Below, piece after piece: positions 13,585 to 45,894 of a stretch of DNA of 64,000 nt. The position numbers and the translations under genes were made by a program. Source of the DNA: Verrucomicrobiota bacterium. Lineage in GTDB: Bacteria > Verrucomicrobiota > Verrucomicrobiia > JABWAM01. The first letter of the stretch is position 1. Each line of letters starts with the position of its first letter. The stretch is from contig JAHFSY010000005.1 of NCBI GenBank assembly GCA_023269615.1, positions 1 to 64,000 of the forward strand. The letters are read 5' to 3'. The notes beneath the pieces are model-generated. The model searched no databases, was not told the DNA's origin, and saw nothing but the letters and a program-made list of their open reading frames with translations.

Positions 13585-14556
13585 ATGAGCAACCTTCTCA
13601 TTGTAGCTGAGCTGGACGAAAGCCACCTCAAGGCAGCCACCCTGTCCGCCATCGGATTTGCCCGCAAGGTAGGCGAGATGGCTGGCGGTTCTTTCGAGGT
13701 CCTTATTGCTGGAAAAGATGTGTCAACCATCGCTGAATCGCTTCGCGCTTACGGCGCTGCAGCGGTTCTCATGGCGGATGACGATGCGCTCAAGAATCCC
13801 GTGGCCGACCAATTCGCGCAGCTCGTTTTCGACGTCGCCCGCCAACGAAACGCATCCATGGTGGTGGGTGCGGTTTCAACGTTCAGCAAGGATATTCTCC
13901 CGCGCGCAGCAGCGTTGCTCGATGCCGGCATGTTGAGCGATGTGGTGGACGCCCATAAGGAGGGCGACCAGTTGATTTTCAAGCGGGCGATGTACGCGGG
14001 CAATATCATTGCAACGGTCTCTCTGGAGGGGAATGTCCGCGTGTTCACCGTGCGGGCCGCCGCGTTCGCGGTCCCGTCGAAAGTTTCGGAAATTTCCCCA
14101 CTGGTTCCAGTGGCCTTGGATGTCAGCAAGGTGACGTCGCGCATGGAGTTTGTGGAGCGGAAGACAAAAGCTTCCACGCGGCCCGATCCCACGGAGGCGC
14201 GGGTCGTGGTCTCGGGTGGGCGCGGGGTCAAAAGTGCCGAGGATTTTGAGCGTCTCATTGGCGGGCTGGCCGATGCGTTTGGCGGCGCGGCAGGTTCCTC
14301 GCGCGCATTGGTGGATGCGGGCATGGCACCCAATTCACTCCAGATCGGACAAACCGGCAAGATGGTGGCGCCTGACCTGTATGTTGCCGTGGGCCTCTCT
14401 GGTGCAATTCAGCATCTTGCGGGAATCAAGGATTCCAAGGTGATCGTGGCCATCAACAAGGATCCGGAAGCACCGATCTTCGAGGTGTCGGACTATGGAA
14501 TCGTGGGCGACCTGTACCAGCTGGTGCCTGAACTGATCGGGCTTTTGAAAAAATAA
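13585..14556 (+). CDS. etfA: Electron transfer flavoprotein alpha subunit
   Basis: ETF alpha (323 aa, family length) carries the FAD-binding C-terminal domain: VVSGGRGVKSAEDFERL at about 205-220, GQTGKMVAPDLYVAVGLSGA at about 254-273, and the signature INKDPEAPIFEVSDYGIVGD near 291-310. It forms the heterodimer with the upstream beta subunit. Its stop codon overlaps the start codon of the acyl-CoA synthetase gene by one base (TAATG), so the three genes are almost certainly one transcript. Confidence 0.95.
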   Translation: MSNLLIVAELDESHLKAATLSAIGFARKVGEMAGGSFEVLIAGKDVSTIAESLRAYGAAAVLMADDDALKNPVADQFAQLVFDVARQRNASMVVGAVSTFSKDILPRAAALLDAGMLSDVVDAHKEGDQLIFKRAMYAGNIIATVSLEGNVRVFTVRAAAFAVPSKVSEISPLVPVALDVSKVTSRMEFVERKTKASTRPDPTEARVVVSGGRGVKSAEDFERLIGGLADAFGGAAGSSRALVDAGMAPNSLQIGQTGKMVAPDLYVAVGLSGAIQHLAGIKDSKVIVAINKDPEAPIFEVSDYGIVGDLYQLVPELIGLLKK

Positions 14557-16322: not shown

Positions 16323-16387
16323 GCTCCGGTGGACTTGACGCATGACACCGCTTGCACGTAGGTTTCAATTCCCACCCATTCCTGATC

Positions 16388-18004: not shown

Positions 18005-18010
18005 GGAACA

Positions 18011-18146
18011 AGCTGCTGGCTTCTAGCTGCTAGCCACTGGAAACAGAACACTAAACATGACAAGTAACGAACACTTTTCAGGCGAACCCGTCAAGCGTTC
18101 CAGCTTTGCTACGGAACCAGCGGCTAGAAGCTAGAAGCCAGTAGCT
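18011..18146. repeat. Inverted pair of heptad arrays
   Basis: Left arm 18011-18040 and right arm 18117-18146 are inverted copies matching at 27 of 30 bases. Each arm is built of 7-base units such as CTTCTAG/CTGCTAG on the left and AGCTAGA/AGCCAGT on the right. The 76-base spacer shows no recognisable feature. The element lies between two same-strand genes, the carboxyltransferase and the atuA-like gene. A transcript through it could fold into a long stem. Confidence 0.75.
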
Positions 18147-18171
18147 GTCTCAGCACCCAGCAACCCGAGAA

Positions 18172-19578
18172 ATGCCATCCGAAGAAAAATCCAGCAGCCA
18201 GCAGCCAGCAGCCAGCAGCACCTGCCGCATCGGCAATGCCCAGGCGTTCTGGGGTGACAGCGTGGACGCCCCCGCGCGGCTCGTGTCGCAGCAGCCGGAC
18301 CTCGATTACCTGACACTCGACTATCTCGCGGAGGTTTCGCTTTCGATTCTCGCGATTCAGCGCGAGAAGGATCCGTCGCTCGGATACGCGAGGGATTTCG
18401 TCGAGGTGGTGAAATCGCTTGTGCCGCACTGGAAGAAGGGCGTGAAGATGCGCATTGTGACCAACGCCGGCGGGTTGAATCCTGAAGGATGCGCGCGTGC
18501 GTGCCGCGACGCGTTGCAAAAAGCGGGATGCGGCCATCTCAAGATCTGGGTGGTGGATGGTGACGACGTGCTCCCGATCATTCGCGAGCGAAGTGATGAA
18601 GCTTCTTTTCGAAATCTTGAAAGCGACGATCCAATCAAGACCGTGCTCGATCGCCTCGTCACCGCCAACGCGTATTTCGGCGCCGAACCGATTGCGCAGG
18701 CGCTGAAGGCAGGGGCAGACCTCGTGATCACGGGCCGAGTCGCCGACCCAAGCCTCGTGGTGGGACCATGCATCGCACATTTTGGATGGAGCGCAACGGA
18801 TTATGACCGCATCGCGGGCGCGACGATCGCGGGGCATTTGATTGAATGCGGCACCCAGGCGACGGGAGGATTTTCAACGGACTGGCTTTCCATTCCTGGA
18901 CGTGACGATATCGGGTTTCCCGTGGTGGAAGTGGATGCCGGCGGATCGTGCGTGGTGACAAAGCCCGCCGGCACCGGTGGATGCGTCAGCGTTCCGACCG
19001 TGAAGGAACAATTGCTTTATGAAATCGGTGATCCCGATAATTATCTCAGCCCGGACGCCACGGTTTCTTTTCTCGATTTGTCAGTGAAGCAGGCAGGAAA
19101 GAATCGGGTGAGAGTCAAGGGCGCTCTCGGGCGTCCCCCGCCGGACAGCTACAAGGTGAGCGCGACGTATCGCGATGGTTTTCGAGCGCACGGCATGCTG
19201 ACGATTTACGGACGCGATGCCGTGAAGAAGGCTCGCCTGTGCGGAGCCGGCGCATTGCAGCGGGTGAAGCGGGCGGGCTACGCGCTGGAACGTTCGCTCG
19301 TGGAATGCCTCGGCGCGGGCGCGTCGGTACCGGGTGTAAAGCAGGCTGTGCCGGAATCAGCGCTCCTTGAAACCGTACTCCGCATTGGCGTCGCCGATCA
19401 TCGGCGGGAAGCCGTGGAGCGATTTTCAAAGGAGATGGCTCCACTCGTCACGTGTGGCCCGCAGGGAGTCACGGGCTATGCGGTTGGACGCCCCAAGGTG
19501 ATGCCCGTCTTCGGCTACTGGCCTTGTCTGATTGAAAAACGCCATGTGAAGCCCTCGGCACGGAGGCTGGAGTCTTGA
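18172..19578 (+). CDS. atuA: AtuA-like protein (DUF1446), acyclic terpene utilisation family
   Basis: This 468-residue protein belongs to the DUF1446/AtuA family, named from the acyclic terpene utilisation cluster of Pseudomonas; its exact reaction is not established. The conserved start CRIGNAQAFWGDS (about 18-30), LDYLTLDYLAEVSLSIL, and the TNAGGLNPEGCA block (about 101-112) are present, with VITGRVADPSLVVGP near 184-198. The first 17 residues (MPSEEKSSSQQPAASST) are low-complexity; part is encoded by four CAGCAGC heptads. No alternative start preserves the conserved region, so the repeat appears to have supplied the N-terminus. The family's small C-terminal ferredoxin-fold domain is a separate gene immediately downstream. 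Confidence 0.87.
   Translation: MPSEEKSSSQQPAASSTCRIGNAQAFWGDSVDAPARLVSQQPDLDYLTLDYLAEVSLSILAIQREKDPSLGYARDFVEVVKSLVPHWKKGVKMRIVTNAGGLNPEGCARACRDALQKAGCGHLKIWVVDGDDVLPIIRERSDEASFRNLESDDPIKTVLDRLVTANAYFGAEPIAQALKAGADLVITGRVADPSLVVGPCIAHFGWSATDYDRIAGATIAGHLIECGTQATGGFSTDWLSIPGRDDIGFPVVEVDAGGSCVVTKPAGTGGCVSVPTVKEQLLYEIGDPDNYLSPDATVSFLDLSVKQAGKNRVRVKGALGRPPPDSYKVSATYRDGFRAHGMLTIYGRDAVKKARLCGAGALQRVKRAGYALERSLVECLGAGASVPGVKQAVPESALLETVLRIGVADHRREAVERFSKEMAPLVTCGPQGVTGYAVGRPKVMPVFGYWPCLIEKRHVKPSARRLES
18192..18219. repeat. CAGCAGC heptad array in the 5' coding region of the atuA-like gene
   Basis: Four perfect tandem copies of CAGCAGC occupy these 28 bases, inside codons 7-16 of the atuA-like gene. 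Gain or loss of a single unit would shift the frame just after the start codon, while three units together would keep it. The array belongs to the period-7 class seen elsewhere in the window. Confidence 0.8.
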
Positions 19579-29414: not shown

Positions 29415-30368
29415 TTATTCAGGCGGAGCGTCCTGCGTGCTTTCCGAGATGAAAGCAATGGGCCATTTTCGCGACTCGTCACACAAGCGGGAAATGTATT
29501 CACCCATGATACCAAGGCAAAGCAATTGTGTGCTCCCCAAAATTGCCATGAAGACAATCAATGATGCGTATCCAGGCGGTCTTTCCTTTCCTATAAACCA
29601 CCAACAAACAATGACCACGGCGTAGATGAAAGATATGATCCCCACCGTCAGTCCAAGAAATGTTGCCAGCCTGAGTGGAACATATGAAAATCCTAAAATT
29701 CCTGTCATGGCAATTCGGATATATTTGAAAATATTGTACCCCGGGCTCCCATAGGCGCGCGCTGCACGGGTATACTCGATACCTGTCTGGCGAAAACCCA
29801 CCCAGGCGCGTATTCCGCGCCAGAATGGGCGCGCCTCACATAGCTGGAGCATCGCATCGACCACGCGCCGCCGCATGCAACAAAAATCCCCGGCGTCCAT
29901 GGGAATCAGCGACTCGGCCATCTGGTTGAAAATGCGATAATAAAGCGCATAGGCCATCCGTTTCAAGAGCCCCTCCTTGCGCTCGCGTCGGATTCCATAG
30001 ACAACGTCGTAACCGTCGTACAGTCTCTTGAAAAATCCCGGCAAGAGCGATGGCGGATCCTGCATATCATCATCAATGATCGCCACAAATTCGCCGCGGC
30101 TCTGACGAAGGCCCACGGCAAGAGCTGCTTGATGACCGAAATTGCGGGACAGGCGAAAGCCACGAATGGGAAAACCTTTCTGAGCCAGGCCTTTTATTTT
30201 CTCGTAGGAGTCGTCACGGCTGCCATCATCCACCATCACCAACTCGTATCGGATTGCTGATGCCTTCATGAGTTGGTCAATCTCTCTGACAAGAATATCC
30301 AAGCCCATGCCGGAGTTATAAACTGGCACAACAATACTGTGCAAACCATCCGCGGTCTTTGAACTCAT
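29415..30368 (-). CDS. Glycosyltransferase family 2, polyprenyl-phosphate sugar transferase type
   Basis: This 317-residue GT2 enzyme is of the DPM1/GtrB type and likely transfers a sugar from a nucleotide donor to undecaprenyl phosphate. The GT-A domain opens with SIVVPVYNSG, then MVDDGSRDDS (about 40-49), and the metal-binding IIDDDMQDPP near 95-104. Two C-terminal transmembrane segments follow (about 232-260 and 270-298). The ATG at 30368 overlaps the stop of the upstream methyltransferase in an ATGA, so the genes are translationally coupled. The sugar is unknown. Confidence 0.92.
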   Translation of the reverse strand: MSSKTADGLHSIVVPVYNSGMGLDILVREIDQLMKASAIRYELVMVDDGSRDDSYEKIKGLAQKGFPIRGFRLSRNFGHQAALAVGLRQSRGEFVAIIDDDMQDPPSLLPGFFKRLYDGYDVVYGIRRERKEGLLKRMAYALYYRIFNQMAESLIPMDAGDFCCMRRRVVDAMLQLCEARPFWRGIRAWVGFRQTGIEYTRAARAYGSPGYNIFKYIRIAMTGILGFSYVPLRLATFLGLTVGIISFIYAVVIVCWWFIGKERPPGYASLIVFMAILGSTQLLCLGIMGEYISRLCDESRKWPIAFISESTQDAPPE

Positions 30369-31060
30369 AAAGTTTTCTGCATGGCAAGATAGTATTGGGC
30401 CCCGATTGGAACGCCGGCAAGCCATTTTTCAAGACAGCGGCATGTTCCGTCAAAAAATGGAGAAAAGATGATGAACTGACGTTGGACAATATCCAGTCTG
30501 GTGCTTTTTATCATCCGCCGCAGCGTTGCTGGCCAGACAAGCTTGACTCCAACATCAAATTCGCAGCGACTCACCACGCATCGAGTAAACGGATTGATGG
30601 GATTATGCTCAAACACGAGAACGCTTCCACCAACCTTAGTCACCCTTGCCATTTCTTTTATAAAATGATTTCGTCCAGCCTGGGGCACATGATGAAGAAC
30701 GCAAATTGCAAACGTCATGTCAAAATGACCGTCTTCATATGGCAGGCGCAAGCCGTCATAGGATTTGTAGTTTCCTCTCGCATTGGCGTTTCTGGCCACT
30801 GTTAACAGCGCTTCAGATACATCCACTCCATGGACCTGTTCGATGTCCCGAAGCAGGCACGTGTCGGTTGACCCAATACCGCAACCGACGTCCAACACCG
30901 CAGCATGTTTCGGATCTGACATGGTTCGCTGCAAGTACTGAAAAATGAGCCTGGCCTTGTACTCGGTGAACTTGTCATGAAGACCCGGCGCAAGGCCACC
31001 GAGGGCCTTGTTAACAGCACACGAGTAGGTGTGCTGGTACGCATCAAACTCATTTTTCAT
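30365..31060 (-). CDS. Class I SAM-dependent methyltransferase
   Basis: This 231-residue methyltransferase has motif I VLDVGCGIGSTDTCL at about 55-69, VHGVDVSEALL for the acidic loop, and AICVLHHVPQ after the substrate-pocket region. It resembles UbiE/COQ5-like enzymes at the fold level only. It is translationally coupled to the GT2 gene that follows, suggesting it modifies the same lipid-linked sugar or glycan. Confidence 0.88.
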   Translation of the reverse strand: MKNEFDAYQHTYSCAVNKALGGLAPGLHDKFTEYKARLIFQYLQRTMSDPKHAAVLDVGCGIGSTDTCLLRDIEQVHGVDVSEALLTVARNANARGNYKSYDGLRLPYEDGHFDMTFAICVLHHVPQAGRNHFIKEMARVTKVGGSVLVFEHNPINPFTRCVVSRCEFDVGVKLVWPATLRRMIKSTRLDIVQRQFIIFSPFFDGTCRCLEKWLAGVPIGAQYYLAMQKTL

Positions 31061-34227: not shown

Positions 34228-36258
34228 TTACTTCGTTTTGCCAGAAATTTGCAGGGAATCCACCCAATCCGCCTCCCAAAAACTTCTGGGACTTCCATCC
34301 CAGCGATGGGCCGTCATCCATTCCAACGAGATATACACATCCTTGCCGGGAGTGATTTCGAGTTCCGTGCCATGAACGAGCCCCTGCATTTTAGCGACGC
34401 TGGCGAGCTCCCTTAATTTTTTAGGATCGTTTCCGCCCCGAATGCGAAACTGGGCTTCACGCATCTGAACATCGGCATCAATCGAAAGCGTTTTCCATTT
34501 TTGGAACAACGCGGCGGGAAGCTGGAGCAGGATGACCGACGGCTGTCCCGGCTGGATTGAATAGAGTTTGCCGTTGGAGAACGGGTTCAAGTTGGCGTTC
34601 TGTCCGCCTTTGAGAAAGCCCATGGATTGTGGGGATGAAAAGTCGTCCGAATACAGAAGGCCCCCTGCCGCCGCGTCCGCCCGGCGCTGCCAGACATCGC
34701 CAATGCTGCCCCCCATCGCATTCACATCCATGACTTTTTCATAGAGCCCGGGATCGGGGCAATGGCGGTAAAACTCGCTGCCCGTTTCAAGGCCAACGCG
34801 CAACACATAGTCCGCGCCGAGCGGGTGGATTGCGGTGTGGCCTTGAATTCTAAGATCGTTCCTCAGGTAGGCCGGAAGGTCGGCGAGTCCTGGCCACGCG
34901 GCCAGCCGGCAGGTCACGGTTGATCCGGGCGGCGCATTCCGGTTGACGTAATCAAAGAGCGGCTGAATGCCTTCACCGTACCAGCCCACGTTGAATGTGT
35001 GATTTTTCACCACGGATCGTGTTCCCCCCACAATCGCGCTGAAAAAATCAATGTAATAAGGATGAATGCGCACGACGGTCAGCAGCTCACTCGCGACCAC
35101 GAAGCCGCCGATGGCGCAACGCCACCGGGCCGCGGACATTTTCCAGCGCGCCAGTTTCTCCGACAGCGAGACAATCCCCAGCGCGGCCAGCACGCACGTG
35201 GATGGATAACAGATGAGGATGTAATGGTTCAAAGCCGAACGAAAAGAAATCGCCCCCGCGATGAGCGGCGCAAAAGCGAAGAGCCAGAGCAGTAGCGACT
35301 CATTTCCGCCGATGGCCCCCTTTGCCGTGCGATACAAACCCGCCATGAACGCCAGAAATACCGCCAGCGGCATTGTCGCCACAAAAATCACAACGTAATA
35401 GTAAATCGGCACCGTGCGAATGGTTCCGAAAAACCATTCCATGCTTCCCCCTGCCTTGGCGACGCTCCCCTGCTGGCCAAACACTTCCAATAAACCCTGG
35501 ATCGGATGAGACCAAAGATAGGGCCAGGTGATCGTAAAGATGACGAGACCGACTATTCCCGAAAGCAATCCGAAGCTGATCAAGCGGGGAATCATTTCCG
35601 GCGGCGCTTCCCGTCTCCTCACAAACCAATGCACGACGAGGGCAGCTTGCAGGATCAGGATGGTCTGCATGCCCACCCGCATGTACGCGGCAAAACTGAT
35701 TCCCGCCCAAAGGATGGCAAAGAACCAGTCCCGTCGCCTGCCCGTCTGAAAATAACGGGTCATCATCCATAGGGCAACGGTGGAAGCCAGCCGCGCCGGC
35801 AGATCGTGCGACGCAAAACGGTCGTGCCCCAGCACGCCCGGGAAGAGCGAGAGAAAGAATGACGCCATCACCCCGACGCCCGAGCCGCCCAGCTGGCGTC
35901 CGATGAGGAACACCACCATGACCTGAAGGGACCCGAGGACCGCGGCATTGAATCGCGCCCCGGCAAGGTCGTGGGCGCTGCCCGGATCATCGCCAAAGAG
36001 CGCTTGCGGGATGACGCCGTACAGCCAGCGGATGATGGCCACGGTGGGCTTATGATAACCCCATCCCTCCGAGGTGAAGTTCCCCGACTTGACCAACTGC
36101 CACCAAGGCCCCGAGTCTTTGGCGGCAAGCTCGTCATAAGTGATCGAGATCGAATTGAAGTCCACGACGCGAAACGCAAGGGCGGTGACGAAAATGAGGA
36201 TGCAAAGCAGCCTCGGATTCCGAAGTTTTTCGTTCCAGCGGGTGATCCACGGTTCCAT
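34228..36258 (-). CDS. PMT/ArnT-like (GT39/GT83) membrane glycosyltransferase
   Basis: This 676-residue protein has about 10 transmembrane segments followed by a soluble C-terminal domain (about 400-676). The first extracytoplasmic loop after TM1 carries the acidic YDELAAKDSG, the position where GT-C enzymes such as PMT and ArnT keep a catalytic aspartate or glutamate. Such enzymes use polyprenyl-phosphate sugars to glycosylate a substrate outside the cytoplasm, which fits the GT2 donor-maker at 29415. The C-terminal part contains a beta-rich module. It is divergent from the sugar operon at 36420. Confidence 0.85.
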   Translation of the reverse strand: MEPWITRWNEKLRNPRLLCILIFVTALAFRVVDFNSISITYDELAAKDSGPWWQLVKSGNFTSEGWGYHKPTVAIIRWLYGVIPQALFGDDPGSAHDLAGARFNAAVLGSLQVMVVFLIGRQLGGSGVGVMASFFLSLFPGVLGHDRFASHDLPARLASTVALWMMTRYFQTGRRRDWFFAILWAGISFAAYMRVGMQTILILQAALVVHWFVRRREAPPEMIPRLISFGLLSGIVGLVIFTITWPYLWSHPIQGLLEVFGQQGSVAKAGGSMEWFFGTIRTVPIYYYVVIFVATMPLAVFLAFMAGLYRTAKGAIGGNESLLLWLFAFAPLIAGAISFRSALNHYILICYPSTCVLAALGIVSLSEKLARWKMSAARWRCAIGGFVVASELLTVVRIHPYYIDFFSAIVGGTRSVVKNHTFNVGWYGEGIQPLFDYVNRNAPPGSTVTCRLAAWPGLADLPAYLRNDLRIQGHTAIHPLGADYVLRVGLETGSEFYRHCPDPGLYEKVMDVNAMGGSIGDVWQRRADAAAGGLLYSDDFSSPQSMGFLKGGQNANLNPFSNGKLYSIQPGQPSVILLQLPAALFQKWKTLSIDADVQMREAQFRIRGGNDPKKLRELASVAKMQGLVHGTELEITPGKDVYISLEWMTAHRWDGSPRSFWEADWVDSLQISGKTK

Positions 36259-36419: not shown

Positions 36420-37406
36420 ATGGAAAAATGTTTCATATTGGGAAGCAATTCGTTCTCGGGAGCCAGCTTCGCCTCGCACGCGCTGACGCAAGGGCTGGCT
36501 GTTTTCGGGGTCAGCCGTTCACCCGAACCCGCGGATGTGTTTCTTCCCTACAAGTGGCAGCCTCACAAACGGTTCCAATTTGATCGTCTTGATTTAAATC
36601 ATGATCTCGACCGGATCATGGAGCGCATCGCGGAATTCCGTCCGGATTTCGTCATAAACTTTGCCGCCCAGAGCATGGTGGCTGAAAGCTGGGAACACCC
36701 CGAACACTGGTACCAGACCAACGTGGTCGCCAACGTGCGGCTGCACGACCGTCTGCGTCACCTGGATTTCATCCGCAAGTACGTTCACATTTCCACCCCC
36801 GAGGTTTATGGCAGCTGCATGGGAAACGTGACGGAAGAGTTTCCATTCAACCCAAGCACGCCGTACGCCGCCTCGCGCGCGGCCTGCGACATGCACCTGA
36901 TGACGTTCTTCCGCAATCACCGTTTCCCCGTGGTCTTCACGCGCGCGGCCAACGTGTACGGGCCCGGACAGTCGTTGTACCGGATCATCCCCCGGACCAT
37001 TCTCTTCATCCGGCTTGGCCGCAAACTCCAGTTGCAAGGAGGGGGGCGCTCGGTCCGATCCTTCATCCATATCCGCGATGTGGCAGATGCCACCCTGCGG
37101 ATCGCGCGAGAGGCGCAACCCGGCGAAGTCTTTCACCTCTCCACGAACATCCGTGTCTCCATCCGCGAACTCGTGGAAATGATCTGCAGTAAAATGGGCG
37201 CGAAATTTCGCGACGTGGTTGAGATGTCGGATGACCGCCCGGGCAAAGATGCTGCGTATCTGCTGGATAGCGGCAAGGCGCGTGTGGCACTTGGTTGGAG
37301 TGACACCATGTCCCTGGAGCAAGGCGTCGAGGAGACGATCCGCTGGGTGGACAATCACATTGATGTTTTGAAGACCCAGCCAATGCAGTACATTCACAAG
37401 CCATGA
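36420..37406 (+). CDS. SDR sugar-nucleotide dehydratase/epimerase
   Basis: This 328-residue extended SDR is of the dTDP-glucose 4,6-dehydratase type. NAD-binding GSNSFSGASF is at the N-terminus, STPEVYGS at about 119-126, YAASRAACD with the YxxxR variant of YxxxK, and RAANVYGPGQ at about 174-183. Classical RmlB has TDE where this protein has TPE, so the dehydratase general acid appears to be missing and another reaction, such as epimerisation, is likely. A GGAG site favours the ATG at 36420 over 36417. It opens a long operon coupled by ATGA overlaps. Confidence 0.85.
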   Translation: MEKCFILGSNSFSGASFASHALTQGLAVFGVSRSPEPADVFLPYKWQPHKRFQFDRLDLNHDLDRIMERIAEFRPDFVINFAAQSMVAESWEHPEHWYQTNVVANVRLHDRLRHLDFIRKYVHISTPEVYGSCMGNVTEEFPFNPSTPYAASRAACDMHLMTFFRNHRFPVVFTRAANVYGPGQSLYRIIPRTILFIRLGRKLQLQGGGRSVRSFIHIRDVADATLRIAREAQPGEVFHLSTNIRVSIRELVEMICSKMGAKFRDVVEMSDDRPGKDAAYLLDSGKARVALGWSDTMSLEQGVEETIRWVDNHIDVLKTQPMQYIHKP

Positions 37407-38443
37407 CTCCCCAGAACATCCTTGTGAGCGGCGGCTTCGGCTATGTGGGCAGCCGTTTGACGCCCCTCCTGCTTGCGCAGGGGCATCGCGTTCGCGTGCT
37501 TGACCTTCTCCTCTACACGGACGCGGGTGTTGAGGCCCTTCGAGCGGATCCGTCCTTTTCCCAATGGAAGGAACGCTTTGAGCTGGTTGTGGGAGACATC
37601 CGCGATCCCTCCAAGGTTTCCGAGGCTGTGCGGGGTGTGAATACGGTGATTCACCTGGCGGCGATTTCCAATGATCCGACCGGGGAGCTGGATGAAGTAT
37701 TGACGCGGCAGGTGAACTTCGACGCGATCGGCATGCTGATCTCGCTGGCGCGTGCGGCCGGGGTGCGGCGTTTCATCAACGCCTCCTCCAGCAGCGTGTT
37801 TGGCATCAAGCAGGAGAAGGATGTGACCGAAACCATCGAACCCGAACCCTTGACCTATTACTCGAGATACAAGATGTTTTCCGAATGGCTGGTGGTGGCC
37901 GCGGCATCACCCGACTTTTGCGCGGTGAACATCCGTCCCGCGACCATCTGCGGTTTTTCCCCGCGCCAGCGCTTCGACCTTACGGTGAACAAGCTGACAG
38001 CCGATGCCGTGCGCAAGCGCGTGATCACCGTTCATGGCGGCGAGCAACGACGCCCGAATGTCGGGATGAGCGATGTGATCCATCTCTACGCTGCGCTGAC
38101 ACAGATGGAATCCTCGCTGATCAACGGGCGGACGTTCAACTTTGGATTCGAGAACCACAAGGTGATTGAAATCGCCAAAATCATCCAGTCAGAGCTTCAG
38201 GATTTATCGGTGAAGATCGAGGTCACGGATACGAAGGATCACCGCGACTATCACATCGGTTCGGGCAAAATCATCCAGGCGCTTGGCTGGCAGCCGCGAA
38301 GTTCCATCCGGCAGGAAGTGGCGGGGCTTCGACGGGCCCTTGATTCGGGGAGTTTTCCGGACATTGACTCGGCGGCGCATTACAATATGAAATCCATGAA
38401 GCTGGCCCGCCTCGCCCGATGTTACGAGCATCTTTCCAGATAA
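37403..38443 (+). CDS. NAD-dependent epimerase/dehydratase (SDR)
   Basis: This second extended SDR of the operon (346 aa) has GGFGYVGSRL (about 10-19) as the dinucleotide loop, NASSSSVFG (about 131-139) as the active-site serine region, and YSRYK (about 154-158) as YxxxK. The substrate is a nucleotide sugar by family analogy. Its ATG overlaps the stop of the upstream SDR by four bases (ATGA), indicating translational coupling. Confidence 0.88.
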   Translation: MTPQNILVSGGFGYVGSRLTPLLLAQGHRVRVLDLLLYTDAGVEALRADPSFSQWKERFELVVGDIRDPSKVSEAVRGVNTVIHLAAISNDPTGELDEVLTRQVNFDAIGMLISLARAAGVRRFINASSSSVFGIKQEKDVTETIEPEPLTYYSRYKMFSEWLVVAAASPDFCAVNIRPATICGFSPRQRFDLTVNKLTADAVRKRVITVHGGEQRRPNVGMSDVIHLYAALTQMESSLINGRTFNFGFENHKVIEIAKIIQSELQDLSVKIEVTDTKDHRDYHIGSGKIIQALGWQPRSSIRQEVAGLRRALDSGSFPDIDSAAHYNMKSMKLARLARCYEHLSR

Positions 38444-38466
38444 GACGCGCTGGATCCAATATCCCC

Positions 38467-40005
38467 ATGTTTTTCCACAAAATCATTCCATTCGAGAAGG
38501 CTCCGTTGCTGTTCCAACGTTTGAAGAAGCGTGGACGGAAGATTGTCCAGTGCCACGGCACATTCGATCTCATCCACCCCGGCCACATCCATCACCTCGA
38601 GGAAGCAAAATCCCTCGGGGATATTCTCGTCGCCACCGCCACCGACGAAAACCATGTCAACAAGGGGCCCGGCCGCCCCTACTTTAATGACGAACTGCGC
38701 GCGCGAACTCTTTCCGCCCTGGAGTGCGTGGATTACGTGGTGATGATCCCGTTCACCGGCGCCGTAGAGGCCATCGAGTGCGTACGGCCCGACATCTATT
38801 GCAAAGGCAGGGAGTACGAGGATCCCGCGCACGATGTCACCGGCAGGATCCATGAGGATGTCGCCGCCGTGAAGCGTTGCGGCGGGCGGATGAGCTACGT
38901 CGGAGACGTGGTATTCAGCTCCACAAGACTGATCAACCAGCATCTCCAGCCGCTCCCGAAACCCGTACGAGAGTTTTGCTCCAAGCTGGCTGATCGCTTC
39001 TCGCCGGCGGATGTCCGCGAAGCCGTGGAGGGTTTCTCAAAACTTCGTGTCCTCATCATCGGGGATATCATCATGGACCGCTACTCCTATCTCACGGTGC
39101 AGGGGCTCACTTCAAAAAATCGCATCATTTCCGGCCGTTACCTGCGCGAGGAGACGCAGGCGGGCGGCGCGCTGGCCGTGTACCGCCACGTGAAGCAATT
39201 CACGCGCAACGTCAAACTCGTCGGTCTCGTTGGCACGGAACCCTGGCTGCGACGCGATCTGCGCCGATTTCTGGACATCCGGGATGACTGGCTGTTCCGC
39301 GATGCCGCATTCACCACGGTCGTCAAGCAGCGTTTCGTTGAGCCGCTCAGCGAGGGAAAAGAATTGAGCAAACTGTTTGCCGTCAATTTTCTCGCCGCCG
39401 AACAGCCACGCCCGGCTCTCCATCGTGCCATCCTCCATCGCATCGAACGAGAGATCCGCCGTTTCGACCTGGTCATGGTGGCGGATTTCGGCCACGGGCT
39501 GCTTCAGGATCAAGTCCGTAAATTGGTCCAGGAGAAATCCCCGTTCCTGGCGCTTAACTGCCAGACCAACAGCGCCAACCACGGGTTCAACATCATTTCA
39601 CGCCAATACCAGCGCGTGGATGCATTTTCGCTCGATGCCCAGGAGCTGCTGCTTTCTTGTGGACGCCGTCACATCCATTTTGCCGGGGAACTCTCATCCC
39701 TTCGCCGGAAGTTGAAGTCCAGTTACGCGTGGCTTACACGCGGGGCGGTGGAGACCATCGGCCTGCAGGCCGGCGGCGCAAGCTGCCTTTGTCCCCCATT
39801 CGAAAATGAGGTCACCGACACCGTGGGCGCGGGTGACGCGTTTTTTTCCATCGCTTCGCTCGCCGCAAAGCAGAAGCTTCCGATCTCTCTCGCCACATTC
39901 CTCGGGCAACTCGCGGGCGCACAGGCCGTGAAAATCGTCGGAAACTCCAGACCGATCTCCAAGGATAAGCTTTTAAAGGGTGGCATGTCCCTGCTAAATT
40001 TATAA
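38467..40005 (+). CDS. Nucleotidyltransferase-PfkB kinase fusion (HldE-like, reversed domain order)
   Basis: This 512-residue fusion has an N-terminal cytidylyltransferase-type domain (about 1-165) with HGTFDLIHPGHIHHL carrying the HxGH active site. A C-terminal ribokinase/PfkB domain (about 195-505) ends in DTVGAGDAFFS with the GAGD catalytic motif. HldE in heptose synthesis has the opposite order, kinase first. The protein should phosphorylate a sugar or polyol and activate a sugar phosphate with a nucleotide, but whether ADP, CDP or another base is used cannot be read here. The ATG at 38467 is preferred to 38419, which would overlap the upstream gene. It is the likely centre of the pathway. 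Confidence 0.88.
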   Translation: MFFHKIIPFEKAPLLFQRLKKRGRKIVQCHGTFDLIHPGHIHHLEEAKSLGDILVATATDENHVNKGPGRPYFNDELRARTLSALECVDYVVMIPFTGAVEAIECVRPDIYCKGREYEDPAHDVTGRIHEDVAAVKRCGGRMSYVGDVVFSSTRLINQHLQPLPKPVREFCSKLADRFSPADVREAVEGFSKLRVLIIGDIIMDRYSYLTVQGLTSKNRIISGRYLREETQAGGALAVYRHVKQFTRNVKLVGLVGTEPWLRRDLRRFLDIRDDWLFRDAAFTTVVKQRFVEPLSEGKELSKLFAVNFLAAEQPRPALHRAILHRIEREIRRFDLVMVADFGHGLLQDQVRKLVQEKSPFLALNCQTNSANHGFNIISRQYQRVDAFSLDAQELLLSCGRRHIHFAGELSSLRRKLKSSYAWLTRGAVETIGLQAGGASCLCPPFENEVTDTVGAGDAFFSIASLAAKQKLPISLATFLGQLAGAQAVKIVGNSRPISKDKLLKGGMSLLNL

Positions 40006-40042
40006 GTCGTTCGAATCAACCGTTGAGAAATGTTTTAAAACC

Positions 40043-41083
40043 ATGAAAACAACCGCCGCGATCCTGGTCGCGCAACACCAGCCGCTCGTGATCGGCGAGG
40101 TGGAGATTCCATCACCCGGATTCGGCCAGGCGCTCGTTGAAGTCAAGGTCAGCCGCATCTGCGGCTCGCAACTCGGTGAGATTGACGGCGTAAAGGGTGC
40201 CGATCCTTATCTGCCCCACCTGCTTGGACACGAGGGCGGAGGTATCGTCCTCGAAACAGGACCCGAGGTTCGTCATGTCAAACGCGGTGATCGCGTGGTT
40301 CTCCATTGGCGTCCGGGTCGCGGAATTGAATCCCGCCCCCCGTCCTGTCACTGGAATGGAAAGACTCTCAACGCGGGCCTTGTCACCACGTTCAACCGTC
40401 ACGCAGTGGTCTCTGAAAACCGTCTCACGGTGGTTCCCGACGACACCGACTTCGAAGTCTGCGCGCTTCTTGCCGACACGTTGATCACCGGCTTCGGAGT
40501 GATTTCCAACGACGCGAAGGTCCGGATTGGCGAATCGGTCGTGGTGATCGGCTGCGGCGGAATCGGCCTCGGCGTGGTGCTGGGCGCAAAATTGGCCGGT
40601 GCCCACCCGATCATTGCCGTGGACATGCATCCGCACAAGTTGAAGAAAGCCGCCGAACATGGCGCGACCCACTGCGTTCATTCCGGGAAAACAGATTTTC
40701 AACAAGAGGTGCTCCGGCTTCTTGGGAACAGGCAACCCGACGTCGTGATTGATGGCACGGGCAACATCCATGTGCTGGAACAAGCCTTCGCCCTCGCAGC
40801 GGAGAAACACGGACGCTGCATCGGATTTGGCGTCATGCCACACGACCACAGGATGCATATCAACACACTTCCTTTGCATTTTGGAAAAATTCTCAAGGGT
40901 TCCCACGGCGGTGACAGCAAACCCGCCGAGGACATCCCGCGCTACCTGGCCATGATGCGCGATGGAAAGTTCGATGCGAGGGGGTTTGTGTCGCATCGCT
41001 TCAAACTCGACGAGATCAATGATGCCATCGCCCGGATGCGCGATGGCGAGGTCATTCACGCCATGATCCACTTTGAACCGTGA
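40043..41083 (+). CDS. Zinc-type alcohol dehydrogenase (MDR) lacking a standard structural-zinc lobe
   Basis: This 346-residue medium-chain dehydrogenase has a catalytic-zinc region RICGSQLGEI and GHEGGGIVLETG (about 38-72), and NAD-binding VIGCGGIGLGVVLGAK (about 168-183). The four-cysteine structural-zinc lobe expected near residues 90-115 is replaced by GIESRPPSCHWN, with a single Cys, so that zinc site appears lost. It probably oxidises or reduces a polyol or sugar intermediate. Its stop overlaps the GTG start of the transketolase subunit. Confidence 0.88.
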   Translation: MKTTAAILVAQHQPLVIGEVEIPSPGFGQALVEVKVSRICGSQLGEIDGVKGADPYLPHLLGHEGGGIVLETGPEVRHVKRGDRVVLHWRPGRGIESRPPSCHWNGKTLNAGLVTTFNRHAVVSENRLTVVPDDTDFEVCALLADTLITGFGVISNDAKVRIGESVVVIGCGGIGLGVVLGAKLAGAHPIIAVDMHPHKLKKAAEHGATHCVHSGKTDFQQEVLRLLGNRQPDVVIDGTGNIHVLEQAFALAAEKHGRCIGFGVMPHDHRMHINTLPLHFGKILKGSHGGDSKPAEDIPRYLAMMRDGKFDARGFVSHRFKLDEINDAIARMRDGEVIHAMIHFEP

Positions 41084-41904
41084 GCGGAGCGTCCCCCACC
41101 GCGGACCTGGAACGGATTGCCCGCGAAATCCGTTTCCGCCTGGTTCGGATGTCCCATGCCGCCGGCACCCCTCACCTCGCCTCAGCGTTGTCCTGCGTGG
41201 ACATTCTTGTCGCGGCCTACTGGAATGTGCTGCGCCTGGATCCGTCCAAGCCGGATGATCCGGACCGCGACCGCTTTATCCTGAGCAAAGGCCATGCCGC
41301 AACCGCCCTCTACGCCACGCTGGCTGCGCGGGGCTTTTTTCCCGAAACGTGGCTGGACACATTCGCACGGCACGGCAGCCGCCTTGCGGAACAACCCGCT
41401 CCGGGTTGCGCACCCGGGGTCGAGCTGGCGACGGGCTCTCTGGGACACGGGCTGCCGGTCGGACTTGGAATGGCTCTTGCCGCGCTCATCCAAAAACGAA
41501 AGCACCGCGTCTTTGTCCTCATGAGCGACGGTGAATGCAACGAGGGCACGGTTTGGGAAGCAGCCCTCTTTGCACCAAATCGCCAGACGGAACGGCTTAC
41601 AGTGATCGTGGATTACAACAAATGGCAGGCCACGGGGAGGAGCGATGAGGTGATGGCTCTTCCCTCTCTGCCAAAAAAATGGGAGGCCTTCGGATGGAAC
41701 GCCTGCGAGGTGGACGGCCATGATGTCGCCGCGCTGACCCGCGCCATGGAAAGCCTGTCTGACGACGGACGCCCAAAGGCCATCATCGCCAACACCATCA
41801 AGGGGCGGGGTATCTCTTTCATGCAGGACGACAACAACTGGCACTACCGTGTTCCAAACGCGGAGGAAGTCAGTGCAGCGGAAAAGGAGCTGGGATTAAA
41901 ATGA
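41080..41904 (+). CDS. Transketolase-like N-terminal subunit (TPP-binding)
   Basis: This 274-residue subunit covers the N-terminal third to half of transketolase. SHAAGTPHLASALSCVDI replaces the usual phosphate-binding GHxG region, FILSKGHAATALYA follows, and the thiamine diphosphate motif is SDGECNEGTVWEAALFA (about 147-163) with DYNKWQ. Split transketolases pair with a separate C-terminal chain, encoded here by the next gene, which begins in an ATGA overlap. The start is GTG at 41080, itself overlapping the dehydrogenase stop. It would transfer or make a two-carbon ketol unit on an unusual acceptor. Confidence 0.9.
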   Translation: MSGASPTADLERIAREIRFRLVRMSHAAGTPHLASALSCVDILVAAYWNVLRLDPSKPDDPDRDRFILSKGHAATALYATLAARGFFPETWLDTFARHGSRLAEQPAPGCAPGVELATGSLGHGLPVGLGMALAALIQKRKHRVFVLMSDGECNEGTVWEAALFAPNRQTERLTVIVDYNKWQATGRSDEVMALPSLPKKWEAFGWNACEVDGHDVAALTRAMESLSDDGRPKAIIANTIKGRGISFMQDDNNWHYRVPNAEEVSAAEKELGLK

Positions 41905-42830
41905 GAAACGCCTTTGCCAGGGAGATCACCCGTCTTGCAAAAGGGGATGAACGGATCGTCCTGCTTGCAGCCGACATCGGCAATAAATTATTTGACGACT
42001 TCAAGCTCAAGTGCCCCGGCCGATTTTTCAACTGCGGCGTGGCGGAGGCAAACATGATCGGCATGGCCGCGGGCATGGCGCTGAGCGGGCTGCGCCCGGT
42101 GTGTTACACGATCGCGCCTTTCATCACCTACCGCTGTCTCGAACAAATTCGCGTGGATGTCTGTTATCACCATGTCCCCGTGGTGCTGGTGGGCACGGGA
42201 TCGGGTCTTGCGTACGCCTCGCTTGGCGCCACACATCATTCTTGCGAGGAAATGGGAATGCTTCGCCTGCTGCCGCATCTGGCCGTGGTTGCGCCCGGAG
42301 ACAGTTTTGAGGTGACGGCCGCAACCAGGGCCGCCGTGGGACATGCGGATCCTGTTTACATTCGAATCGGAAAAAAAGATGAGCCTGTCGTCCACGCAAG
42401 CGAACCCCCGTTTGCCATCGGCAAGGCCATCCGTGTGCGCGGGGGAAGGGATGTTTGTTTTCTCAGCAATGGGGCGATGTTGCCGGTGGTCATCGCTGCC
42501 GCCGATCTGCTGGTGAAGGAAGGGCTCTCGCCGGAAATCCACAGCTTTCACACCGTGAAACCTCTGGATGAAACAACGCTTCACGACCTGTTTCCCCGCC
42601 ACCGCATCGTGGCGACCGTGGAGGAGCACGGAATTGCCGGCGGATTGGGCGGGAGCGTTGCAGAATGGCTGGCCGACCATCCATTTCCCAATGCCGCGCT
42701 TTTGCGCTTCGGCACCAGCGGGGACTTCTGGCACGAAACCGGCGAGCAGGAACACGCGCGCGAACACTTCGGCCTGACCGCTCCAGCCATCGCAGCGCGC
42801 GTCAAGTCAGCGCTGGCATCCGTCCCATGA
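41901..42830 (+). CDS. Transketolase-like C-terminal subunit
   Basis: This 309-residue chain carries the pyrimidine-binding and C-terminal domains of transketolase: the glutamate region FNCGVAEANMIGMAAGMALSG (about 37-57), the substrate-pocket ASLGATHHSCEEMGMLR (about 110-126), and a C-terminal regulatory-type domain with EEHGIAGGLGGSVAE. Together with the preceding gene it rebuilds one full enzyme of about 580 residues. It overlaps the HAD-like gene by an ATGA. Confidence 0.9.
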   Translation: MRNAFAREITRLAKGDERIVLLAADIGNKLFDDFKLKCPGRFFNCGVAEANMIGMAAGMALSGLRPVCYTIAPFITYRCLEQIRVDVCYHHVPVVLVGTGSGLAYASLGATHHSCEEMGMLRLLPHLAVVAPGDSFEVTAATRAAVGHADPVYIRIGKKDEPVVHASEPPFAIGKAIRVRGGRDVCFLSNGAMLPVVIAAADLLVKEGLSPEIHSFHTVKPLDETTLHDLFPRHRIVATVEEHGIAGGLGGSVAEWLADHPFPNAALLRFGTSGDFWHETGEQEHAREHFGLTAPAIAARVKSALASVP

Positions 42831-43435
42831 ATTGCCCCGAGATGGTTGTTGGCGTGGATCTGGACAACACCATCGTCTCGTACGATTCCCTCTTTCACCG
42901 CCTCGCTCTCGAACAGGGATTGATCCCGTCGTCATTTCCTGCATCCAAGACTGAAATCCGCGACCACCTGCGACGCGTCGGAAAAGAGAATGCCTGGACC
43001 GGGCTTCAGGGTCTTGCTTACGGAACGCGCATGAATGAGGCGGAGTTTTTTCCGGGCGTCACGGATTTTTTCTCGGAATGCATCCGTCGAAAAACCCGGG
43101 TGCACATCATCAGCCACCGAACCCGCCAGCCCTTCCTCGGTCCACCATGTGACCTGCATGACGCCGCGTTGCGCTGGCTCAAACAAGGGGGCTTTGGTGA
43201 ATGGGTTTCCCGTGGCGCCGTATTTCTCGAGCTGACGCGCGAAGCAAAGCTCGGACGGATCATGACGACAGGGTGCACGCACTTTGTGGATGACCTTCCC
43301 GAGTTTTTATCGGCGGTGGATTTTCCGGCATCAGTCCAGCGCTTGCTGTTCGACCCGTGCATGCTCCATGGCGCGGAGATTCGCTTTCCACGCATGGAAT
43401 CCTGGGCGGCAATTCACAATAAGCTCTTTTTATGA
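42827..43435 (+). CDS. HAD-like protein
   Basis: This 202-residue protein shows a haloacid dehalogenase motif I, VGVDLDNTIVSYD (about 8-20), with DxDNT, the arrangement used by phosphatases. Motif II may be HIISHRTRQP near 99-108, and a possible motif IV is FVDDLPEFL near 157-165. A specific phosphatase would fit the pathway: removing a phosphate from a sugar phosphate after kinase and nucleotidyltransferase steps. It is coupled to both neighbours by ATGA overlaps. Activity is inferred from fold only. Confidence 0.7.
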   Translation: MNCPEMVVGVDLDNTIVSYDSLFHRLALEQGLIPSSFPASKTEIRDHLRRVGKENAWTGLQGLAYGTRMNEAEFFPGVTDFFSECIRRKTRVHIISHRTRQPFLGPPCDLHDAALRWLKQGGFGEWVSRGAVFLELTREAKLGRIMTTGCTHFVDDLPEFLSAVDFPASVQRLLFDPCMLHGAEIRFPRMESWAAIHNKLFL

Positions 43436-44433
43436 AACACGTCACGGCACTCCTCGAGCGCGCGGGACTTTCCACCGCGTTCACACTCTCGCCCGTCAAG
43501 GGCGGTGGCAACAACCGCGTCTGGAAATTGAAACGCAAGGAGGGGTCTCTGTTGCTCAAGCAATACTTTCATCATCCCGGCGACCCGCGTGACCGGTTTG
43601 GAGCGGAGCGGTCATTCTACAAATTTCTCCAGGCACAGGGCATTGACCGCGTTCCGACTCCAATCGCATGGGACGCCGCAAACCGGCTTGCCCTGTTTGA
43701 ATACATCGAGGGACGAAAATTATTGCCGGGCGGGATCAACCGGAAACGAGTGGATGAGGCACTGGAGTTTTATCGTCTCTTGAACCACCACAAGGAAGCG
43801 TCTTCGGGCCGCTCACTCGCTTCCGCCTCCGAGGCGTGTTTCAGCATCGCCAAACATCTCGATTGTATCGAGGTCCGGGTCCGACGGTTGGAACAGATTC
43901 ATCCCTCCTCGAAAATGGAGGGCGATGTTGCGCGCTTCGTGGCACGCCAGTTAAAGCCGTCATGGGAAAGGATATGCGACACGATCTGGGGCGGGGAGCG
44001 GGCGATGGACTGCAAACACGATGCGCTTCTGCCAGCCAACGCGCGCCGAATCTCACCCTCTGATTTTGGATTTCACAACGCGATCGTTGCGCGCGATGGA
44101 AGGCTTCGATTTTTTGATTTCGAATACGCGGGATGGGATGACCCTGCGAAGACGGTGTGTGATTTTTTCTGCCAGCGCGCGGTCCCCGTCCCATTCCGTT
44201 TCTGGAAAGTGTTTCTGGATGTTCTGGCGCGAGGCGATCCCTTCCTGAAAAAGCGGGCCTGCCTGCTCCTTCCCGCGTACCGTATCAAGTGGTGCTGCAT
44301 CATGCTCAACGAGTTTGTGACGGTGTCCCGCGTGCGCCGTCAATTCGCGGGAAGCGGTCCCATCCCGGAATCCCGCAGGCGGGCGCAACTGGTGCGGGCG
44401 CAAAACTTCTTGAGCCATCCAAAAAAACCGTAA
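43432..44433 (+). CDS. Aminoglycoside phosphotransferase/choline kinase-like protein
   Basis: This 333-residue APH-type kinase has a nucleotide-binding KGGGNNRVWKL and KQYFHHPGD region (about 23-48), the catalytic-loop variant SPSDFGFHNAIVARDGRLRFFDFEYAGWDDP (about 203-235, usual HGDxxxxN with a changed first residue), and a helical C-terminus. It probably phosphorylates a small molecule such as a sugar or amino-alcohol. An overlap of four bases couples it to the HAD-like gene. The unusual catalytic loop is seen in some uncharacterised relatives, so activity is not assured. Confidence 0.8.
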   Translation: MKHVTALLERAGLSTAFTLSPVKGGGNNRVWKLKRKEGSLLLKQYFHHPGDPRDRFGAERSFYKFLQAQGIDRVPTPIAWDAANRLALFEYIEGRKLLPGGINRKRVDEALEFYRLLNHHKEASSGRSLASASEACFSIAKHLDCIEVRVRRLEQIHPSSKMEGDVARFVARQLKPSWERICDTIWGGERAMDCKHDALLPANARRISPSDFGFHNAIVARDGRLRFFDFEYAGWDDPAKTVCDFFCQRAVPVPFRFWKVFLDVLARGDPFLKKRACLLLPAYRIKWCCIMLNEFVTVSRVRRQFAGSGPIPESRRRAQLVRAQNFLSHPKKP

Positions 44434-44447
44434 CACTACAACCCATC

Positions 44448-45110
44448 ATGCCCCGGATTGATTTCATCACCCCGCTCCATCGCCAGACGCGGCGCGACTA
44501 CCTTGCGAGGGTGAACGAATTTTCCAAGGCGGAGGCGGCGAAAGTGGCAAAACGTTTTGACCGGGAGTACTGGGATGGGGATCGCAAGTTTGGCTACGGC
44601 GGGATGAAATACGACGGACGGTGGCGCGTGGTGGCGGAGGCGATGGCGAAGCATTACGGATTAAAGGCTGGTCAGCGGATTCTCGACGTGGGTTGCGGGA
44701 AGGGCTTTCTCCTCTACGAATTCACGCAGGTGGTTCCAGGAGTCGAGGTCGCCGGCCTGGATATTTCAAGTTACGCCGTCGAACATGCAAAAGAGGAAGT
44801 CCGCCCCTTCCTGCGGGTTGGACACGCGCGGGAACTGCCTTACGACAACGCGAGCTTTGATCTCATCATTTCCATCAACACGCTGCACAACCTTCCCTGT
44901 TTTGACCTGGATCGGGCATTGAAAGAAATCCAGCGCGTGGGCCGTGCGAACCGCTACATCGTGGTGGAGTCGTGGCGCAACGAGGAGGAGAAAACCAACC
45001 TGCTCTACTGGCAACTGACCTGCGAATCCTTTTACAGCACCGAGGGATGGGAGTGGTGGTTTAAACAGTGCGGCTATCAAGGCGATTGGGGATACATCTT
45101 CTTTGAATGA
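44448..45110 (+). CDS. Class I SAM-dependent methyltransferase
   Basis: This 220-residue methyltransferase has motif I ILDVGCGKGFLLYEF at about 76-90, VAGLDISSYAVE for the acidic loop and IISINTLHNLPCFDLD. It starts 14 bases after the APH-like gene and closes the plus-strand operon. It probably methylates the sugar product or its precursor. Confidence 0.88.
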   Translation: MPRIDFITPLHRQTRRDYLARVNEFSKAEAAKVAKRFDREYWDGDRKFGYGGMKYDGRWRVVAEAMAKHYGLKAGQRILDVGCGKGFLLYEFTQVVPGVEVAGLDISSYAVEHAKEEVRPFLRVGHARELPYDNASFDLIISINTLHNLPCFDLDRALKEIQRVGRANRYIVVESWRNEEEKTNLLYWQLTCESFYSTEGWEWWFKQCGYQGDWGYIFFE

Positions 45111-45120
45111 CTCCCTCCCT

Positions 45121-45894
45121 TCATTCCCCCCCTTTTTTCTGACGATACAACTCGGATGTCCTCTCCGCATTCCGACGGATCATCCCCTGCTGAATCCGCC
45201 GCAGAAAAATATGACCCAGGCTGTTGATCACCGCCAGGATGTTGTTCAACTTGAAGGCCTTCGTGACACCGAACGTGCGATCGCTGTTGGTAACTTCCAC
45301 CTCGATGTAAGTGATGCCCTCGTCAAGAAGCCGGCACAGGAGTTCCGCCTGATATCCAAAGCCGGCGGTTTCACTAAACCAAGATCTCACATTGTCTGTC
45401 TTATGCAGGACTGGGCCGTTGTAATACTTCAGCCGATGACCGCTCAACAGGCTCACGCAAAACACAAAACTCCGGCTGATGACGCGCCGCCCGAAAGTTC
45501 TCATTTCCTTGGCTCCGAAATAGGGAATGATCGCATCCGCCTTCCCCCGTTGTGAAAGAATGGCCCCCATCAATTCCTCCGTTTCGGAAGCGTCGCCATT
45601 GACAATCATGTAGTATTCGCCGCGGGCGCGCTGCGCAGCGATGAAGTAATTTCTTCCAAGCCCGCGCGTAAACCGGTTAACCACAAGCTGGATCTGCAAT
45701 CCGGGATGCTTCGCCTCGTGACGACGGACCTCTTCCACCGAACCATCCACCGACGCGTCGTCAATCACCACAATCTCGTACGACTCCGCCCGCTCCTTCA
45801 TCACATTCACCACCATGTCCATCGTCCGTCCCACATTTCCCTCCTCATTGAGACAAGGGATGAAAAATGTGATGAGCGGCGCCTTTTCGTCCAT
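45121..45894 (-). CDS. Glycosyltransferase family 2
   Basis: This 257-residue GT2 has a GT-A domain beginning FFIPCLNEEGNVGRTMD (about 10-26), VIDDASVDGS (about 43-52) for nucleotide binding and MIVNGDASET (about 95-104) as the DxD-like site. A hydrophobic stretch at about 125-140 may be membrane-associated. It is convergent with the upstream operon (10-base gap) and lies in a minus-strand set with two small membrane proteins and an SDR. Confidence 0.9.
   Translation of the reverse strand: MDEKAPLITFFIPCLNEEGNVGRTMDMVVNVMKERAESYEIVVIDDASVDGSVEEVRRHEAKHPGLQIQLVVNRFTRGLGRNYFIAAQRARGEYYMIVNGDASETEELMGAILSQRGKADAIIPYFGAKEMRTFGRRVISRSFVFCVSLLSGHRLKYYNGPVLHKTDNVRSWFSETAGFGYQAELLCRLLDEGITYIEVEVTNSDRTFGVTKAFKLNNILAVINSLGHIFLRRIQQGMIRRNAERTSELYRQKKGGE

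Follow-up and report, generated by a model that had tools for sequence, protein, structure and literature searches.

The stretch of DNA analysed here, the first 64,000 nucleotides of contig JAHFSY010000005.1 of a Verrucomicrobiota bacterium (hereafter the window), carries at 36420-45110 a nine-gene operon that we judge fairly likely to be of the bradyrhizose type. Its product would be a nucleotide-activated higher sugar with a C2 branch, destined for a surface glycan and probably identical with or closely similar to bradyrhizose, which has ten carbons and two rings (PMC9912281). Nine open reading frames (ORFs) fill the interval, all on the + strand, as a sequence-only reading of the same DNA had claimed, and 5 of the 8 junctions are 4-nt overlaps (ATGA in 4 cases, GTGA in 1), which bears out its statement that most junctions are of this kind; gaps of 23, 37, and 14 nt occupy the other 3.

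The proposed bradyrhizose operon and its relatives

In order, the window operon encodes SDR1 (36420..37406), an extended SDR of the dTDP-glucose 4,6-dehydratase type; SDR2 (37403..38443), a second extended SDR of the epimerase/reductase type; a nucleotidyltransferase (NTase)-PfkB fusion (38467..40005), an adenylyl/cytidylyltransferase followed by a sugar kinase, that is, HldE-like domains in reversed order; a zinc-dependent medium-chain dehydrogenase (MDR; 40043..41083); the N-terminal, thiamine diphosphate (ThDP)-binding chain of a split transketolase (TKN; 41080..41904) and its C-terminal chain with the pyrimidine and C domains (TKC; 41901..42830); a HAD-superfamily phosphatase with a cap domain (42827..43435); an APH-like small-molecule kinase (43432..44433); and a class I S-adenosylmethionine methyltransferase (MT; 44448..45110). 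The starts given for the fusion and the methyltransferase are refined positions. The family assignments of the sequence-only reading were upheld throughout: Pfam and NCBIfam models support the two extended SDRs, CTP_transf_like plus PfkB, the zinc MDR, APH, and the class I methyltransferase, with Transketolase_N and Transket_pyr/Transketolase_C matched on separate ORFs, and the HAD gene, which had no Pfam or NCBIfam match over threshold and no match in a PDB sequence search, is identified by its motifs and an AlphaFold model.

The connection to bradyrhizose runs through gdh (“dTDP-glucose 4,6-dehydratase”), a member of an eleven-gene cluster of the photosynthetic Bradyrhizobium ORS285 (Busset 2016, PMC4743980). 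In gdh insertion mutants bradyrhizose is lost from the lipopolysaccharide (LPS), and the cluster was assumed in that study to make the sugar, its enzymes being left unassigned (PMC4743980). One Bradyrhizobium genome, G636, is matched with 0 mismatches by both gdh and both rfaL primers of that study, with rfaL ~45 kb off, and the gdh primers span 381 bp inside its SDR1 orthologue, the paper’s fragments being 300-400 bp. Hence, G636 is ORS285 or a near-identical strain. The forward gdh primer encodes DAFLPYKW and the reverse DMSLRTYF; the equivalents in window SDR1, the orthologue of gdh, are DVFLPYKW and DMHLMTFF. The G636 operon has exactly 11 genes: NTase-PfkB, a sugar-1-phosphate NTP-transferase, SDR2, a SIS-domain gene, SDR1/gdh, TKN, TKC, MDR, HAD, APH, and MT. 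Each of the 9 window genes has a homologue in this operon, at identities of 62% for TKN, 58% for SDR1 and TKC, 56% for MT (the last gene in both), 41% for MDR and APH, 40% for HAD, 34% for SDR2, and 26-27% for the fusion. The fusion, SDR2, MDR, HAD, APH, and MT are all present and adjacent in the window, and the TKN-TKC and HAD-APH-MT orders are kept, although the gene order is otherwise partly shuffled and the window operon has neither SIS nor NTP-transferase. At the level of sequence, then, the window operon is kin to the bradyrhizose operon, and kinship rather than identity is what we claim. The sequence-only reading had offered the set as undescribed; this no longer holds for the genes, which are those of a published operon, but it still does for the chemistry, in that no known pathway matched and the enzymes are biochemically unassigned. 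No biosynthetic study of bradyrhizose besides Busset 2016 was found in a literature search conducted largely without subscription papers.

Within Bradyrhizobium, the SDR1 orthologue (56-59%) occurs in 16 of 266 genomes, and in one photosynthetic subgroup of 11 genomes, 10 carry the operon. The notion that every operon-bearing Bradyrhizobium is photosynthetic fails, as Photo_RC is found in 10 of the 16, leaving 6 genomes without a reaction-centre gene. For the wider distribution we used a phylum sample of 388 genomes, including the window’s own. The fusion was present in 26 and TKN (E up to 1e-75) in 12, and the two occurred together in 8 of the 387 other genomes, against 0.7 expected (P 1.4e-8). 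This is the co-occurrence that the sequence-only reading had proposed to look for, and coincidental adjacency, which that reading had named as the competing account, is contradicted by the excess and by the persistence of the same neighbours across many phyla. In neighbourhood maps drawn for these genomes of the phylum sample and for 78 named loci, the same set in shuffled order was seen in Verrucomicrobiota, Planctomycetota, Pseudomonadota, Chloroflexota, Bacillota, Elusimicrobiota, and one archaeal metagenome-assembled genome (MAG). Most mapped relatives carry a SIS-domain gene; among 99 collapsed fusion clusters, SIS was found in 60 and a ThDP carboligase nearby in 63. A plasmid collection gave only 2 full-length fusions, both distant.

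Carboligase exchange and the proposed branching step

The window TKN falls in an 18-row clade with the Bradyrhizobium TKNs (support 99/95). A full-length transketolase is also encoded on contig C58 of the host genome (4.48 Mb in 131 contigs), and residue columns were read from an alignment of the operon transketolases to 6YAK, 6YAJ, and this housekeeping enzyme, in E. coli transketolase numbering. The ThDP, catalytic, and proton-transfer columns (H26, H66, the GDG aspartate D155, H261, E411, and H473) are retained in the cassette enzymes. Columns H461, D469, S385, and R520, which are retained in C58 and largely in the split transketolase 6YAJ, are replaced in the cassette enzymes and read G, L, N, and K in the window. 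Since these are phosphate and acceptor-hydroxyl columns, an ordinary aldose phosphate is an unlikely acceptor.

The acceptor is also indicated by what replaces the transketolase in related operons. Many operons, those of Rhodopseudomonas among them, are otherwise the same but have an E1 alpha/beta pair where TKN and TKC would be. The Rhodopseudomonas operon (L209-L218) has SDR2, SDR1 (61-63%), MT, MDR, and the fusion, as well as the SIS and NTP-transferase genes that the window operon does not have; it differs in having an alpha-KADH2-like pair for the transketolase and no HAD or APH. The supported branches of the SDR1 tree require the transketolase label to have changed at least 3 times and the E1 label at least 5 times, and by this measure carboligases have been swapped repeatedly around a constant set of SDR1, SDR2, fusion, and SIS. 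The simplest reading of such swapping is that both kinds of carboligase act at one step, on the SDR1 product. Alpha-KADH2, which is of the E1 type, and split transketolases, both two-subunit enzymes, are 2 of the 3 ThDP groups listed as making tertiary alcohols from keto-sugars; the E1 alpha/beta kind places acetyl branches on keto-sugars, and for the split transketolases ketone branching is only a proposal (PMC12247030). In the miharamycin and amipurimycin systems, a two-chain transketolase is likewise proposed to move a hydroxyacetyl group onto a keto-sugar, though these are nucleoside antibiotics of Streptomyces rather than surface glycans (PMC12247030). The O-antigen of R. palustris CGA009 is built of a C-4-branched monosaccharide; the CGA009 genome itself lay outside the operon comparison.

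The same evidence bears on a different placement of the transketolase, in which it would act early, making an unusual ketose phosphate (e.g., octulose phosphate) that is passed to SIS, PfkB, and NTase, with the SDRs and MDR working as in ordinary nucleotide-sugar pathways and no branching by transketolase at all. This comes close to the order given by the sequence-only reading, namely C2 addition, reduction, phosphorylation, and activation. Sugar phosphates are the normal substrates of transketolases, a GmhA-like SIS, of the kind that turns ketose phosphate into aldose phosphate, adjoins the fusion in most relatives, and octose-type O-antigen sugars do exist (erwiniose, an octose, and the R. 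palustris sugar). We nonetheless find an early transketolase unlikely. An E1 alpha/beta pair would use pyruvate and could not make that ketose, yet SIS, the fusion, SDR1, SDR2, MT, and MDR all stay in place when it replaces the transketolase; the 4 TKC columns are changed, unlike those of the housekeeping enzyme of the same genome; and that genome already has a full-length transketolase. Activation first, followed by branching on the keto product of SDR1, is what we infer from the swaps around the same SDR1 and from the GmhA-like SIS beside the fusion. The earlier proposal was that these genes form one coupled operon, that they make an activated sugar of an unusual kind, and that a two-carbon unit is added to a carbonyl. 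Its first two parts stand, the C2 addition is probably right in view of the carboligase exchange and the changed columns, and its order of steps is probably wrong.

HAD and APH follow the transketolase. They occur in 22 of 36 transketolase clusters and in 0 of 26 E1 clusters (P 1e-7), a restriction which argues that they serve the hydroxyacetyl branch specifically, and in 4 genomes the two are fused as one ORF (L132:6420-8168, L098:7854-9494, L093:12519-14156, and L040:289-1953). The 17 homologues aligned with HAD all keep the DxDNT, SH, K, and DD motifs. An AlphaFold model of the window protein (pLDDT 93) is that of a capped HAD phosphatase, best matched by 5'(3')-deoxyribonucleotidases at a TM-score of 0.69. 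GmhB, the heptose bisphosphatase, has a capless HAD fold, and a GmhB role was rejected on account of the inserted cap helices in the model. Perhaps a phosphate is added by APH and then removed by HAD; any substrate named for the pair would be a guess.

The mapped loci held further carboligase arrangements. An acetolactate-synthase-like ThDP gene, possibly a second carboligase, lies ~1 kb downstream of the Rhodopseudomonas operon, and in L111 and L119 a transketolase pair and an E1 alpha/beta pair stand beside one SDR1, possibly for doubly branched sugars. A single ORF fusing E1 alpha and E1 beta (L126:4362-6428) adjoins the NTase-PfkB fusion in a Magnetococcales MAG, and a TKN homologue in genome G375 (L206) has one in-frame TGA and is possibly a pseudogene. 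In other Bradyrhizobium, a sister cluster (L101, L103, L105, L121, and L128) reads SIS, SDR, fusion, SDR2, HAD, APH, TKN, TKC, DegT, DegT, MT, and its product is probably the branched sugar in amino form. An amino-sugar reading drawn from these DegT-bearing clusters was set aside, as their TKNs belong to a different clade.

Predicted pathway and product

The fusion and SIS point to activation of a heptose type. In the window fusion the HPGH, KG, SST, and DTVGAGDA motifs are intact, and the best NCBIfam match, over both domains, is HldE, at 121.8 bits against a cut-off of 521. The pairing of sugar kinase with nucleotidyltransferase, and the SIS isomerase of relatives, recall the ADP-heptose enzymes HldE and GmhA. 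The window fusion nevertheless falls outside HldE, with NTase first and PfkB second where HldE has the kinase N-terminal and the NTase C-terminal, the scores lie far under the family cut-offs, and there is no GmhB; the SIS of relatives matches gmhA at 111 bits, also under the curated cut-off. The Bradyrhizobium fusion matches strongly in its kinase (HldE domain I, 191 bits, under the curated cut-off) and more weakly in its NTase (56 bits), which looks degenerate where the window has the full HldE-type NTase motifs, and it is adjoined by the NTP-transferase, as if that enzyme had assumed the activation.

Could the operon simply make LPS heptose (ADP- or GDP-glycero-manno-heptose) beside unrelated neighbours? 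HldE is indeed the best match of the fusion, and there is an HddA-like GHMP kinase at a distance of 7 kb. We hold this to be very improbable, because HldA-like and HldC-like genes are encoded separately in the host genome (contigs C29 and C23), the heptose pathway needs no transketolase, MDR, or MT, and the set is kept as a unit across phyla; on the low HldE and GmhA scores and the separate heptose genes, a heptose-only reading was rejected. A single GmhA-like SIS gene lies outside the operon on contig C16. With these genes and the full-length transketolase elsewhere in the genome, the fusion and the split transketolase appear to be extra copies with a special role.

SDR1 departs from RmlB at 2 catalytic motifs, having T-P-E where RmlB has T-D-E and YxxSR where it has YxxxK. 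Among 42 family members of at least 50% identity in which the motif segment was read, T-P-E is found in all 42 and the SDR lysine is replaced by arginine in 36. These substitutions make classical 4,6-dehydration doubtful and 4-oxidation the more secure assignment.

We infer every reaction, the reaction order, and the product in the window’s organism from gene families and their arrangement. A GmhA-like SIS, encoded elsewhere in the genome, would turn a ketose phosphate into an aldose phosphate, the simplest choice being a heptose phosphate; the PfkB domain would phosphorylate C1, and the NTase domain would then make the nucleoside diphosphate (NDP)-sugar. Oxidation by SDR1 would yield a ketone at C4, perhaps along with chemistry at C6, and the split transketolase would move a hydroxyacetyl (C2) unit onto that ketone, leaving a tertiary alcohol at C4. 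MDR and SDR2 would adjust oxidation states, and if the product is bicyclic, a carbocycle would be formed by joining the branch to the chain end. In the transketolase version only, APH and HAD would transiently phosphorylate and dephosphorylate an intermediate, and the methyltransferase would add the last group.

The structure of bradyrhizose is consistent with this scheme. Its C1 hemiacetal can close on O-4, O-5, or O-9 (PMC9912281). A six-membered closure on O-9 means that C4 is bonded to C9, and closure on O-4 that C4 bears an oxygen; C4 is then a tertiary alcohol with an oxygenated carbon on either side, as acyl addition to a C4 ketone gives. A heptose plus 2 carbons, plus 1 more if the methyl is on carbon, could account for the ten; an octose plus 2 fits equally. 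Our more specific proposal, to which we give less than even weight, is that the split transketolase puts hydroxyacetyl on C4 of an NDP-keto-heptose and that an intramolecular aldol reaction then joins the added carbons to the chain end, forming the inositol ring of bradyrhizose. A carbocycle-fused sugar would then be made by a new route, with a transketolase acting on a ketone for the first time, and the route would run across several phyla in modular form, with transketolase plus HAD-APH or with E1 alpha/beta. It is also conceivable, though we lean against it, that the product of the window operon is a less complex NDP-sugar with a C2 branch (4-C-dihydroxyethyl or hydroxyacetyl) and that ring closure needs features specific to Bradyrhizobium. 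This would be a sub-case of the same mechanism and a rival on the product only. The missing NTP-transferase and SIS, and identities of just 34-41% for MDR, HAD, APH, and SDR2, speak for it. Against it, the only missing genes are those 2, both for early steps, so nothing in the gene content points to the loss of a ring-closing enzyme.

Several points weigh against a bradyrhizose-type product. Polar effects of the gdh insertions were not excluded by the authors (PMC4743980). Neither SIS nor NTP-transferase was found in the window operon (36.4-45.1 kb), the NTP-transferase not having been sought genome-wide, and the 26-27% identity of the fusions means that the product may differ. Within the enzymes, the catalytic Asp is lost and the SDR Lys mostly lost across the SDR1 subfamily, and the donor-contacting His of most relatives is Gln in window TKN. 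The carbon count is a fit only, and none of the enzymes encoded in operons of this kind has, to our knowledge, been assayed.

Genomic setting and significance

The surroundings of the operon fit a surface-glycan role. Glycosyltransferases and methyltransferases flank it (about 28.7-55 kb), among them a GT2 glycosyltransferase resembling ArnC and PgfS, enzymes of undecaprenyl-phosphate sugar transfer (29415..30425, - strand), a PMT-like (GT-C) membrane glycosyltransferase directly upstream and divergent (34228..36258, - strand), and a GT2 family glycosyltransferase convergent with the operon (45121..45894, - strand). The ArnC/PgfS-like and PMT-like transferases could attach the sugar via undecaprenyl phosphate. 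Elsewhere in the window, at 13585-19578, lies an unrelated catabolic block of electron transfer flavoprotein alpha, an AMP-binding enzyme, a carboxyl transferase, and AtuA, of the acyclic terpene/acyl-CoA degradation type.

The bradyrhizose polymer triggers no plant immunity. For the biosynthesis of the sugar, no genes were known before 2016, when one operon was put forward. All of its genes can now be assigned to families, and a testable order of steps is offered. The operons also supply candidates for a ketone-acting transketolase, an activity proposed for two antibiotics with in vitro proof pending (PMC12247030). The natural exchange of carboligases, transketolase for E1 alpha/beta, predicts hydroxyacetyl branches in one version and acetyl branches in the other. 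Bradyrhizose-type sugars are predicted in unrelated phyla, with the window’s organism as a predicted producer.

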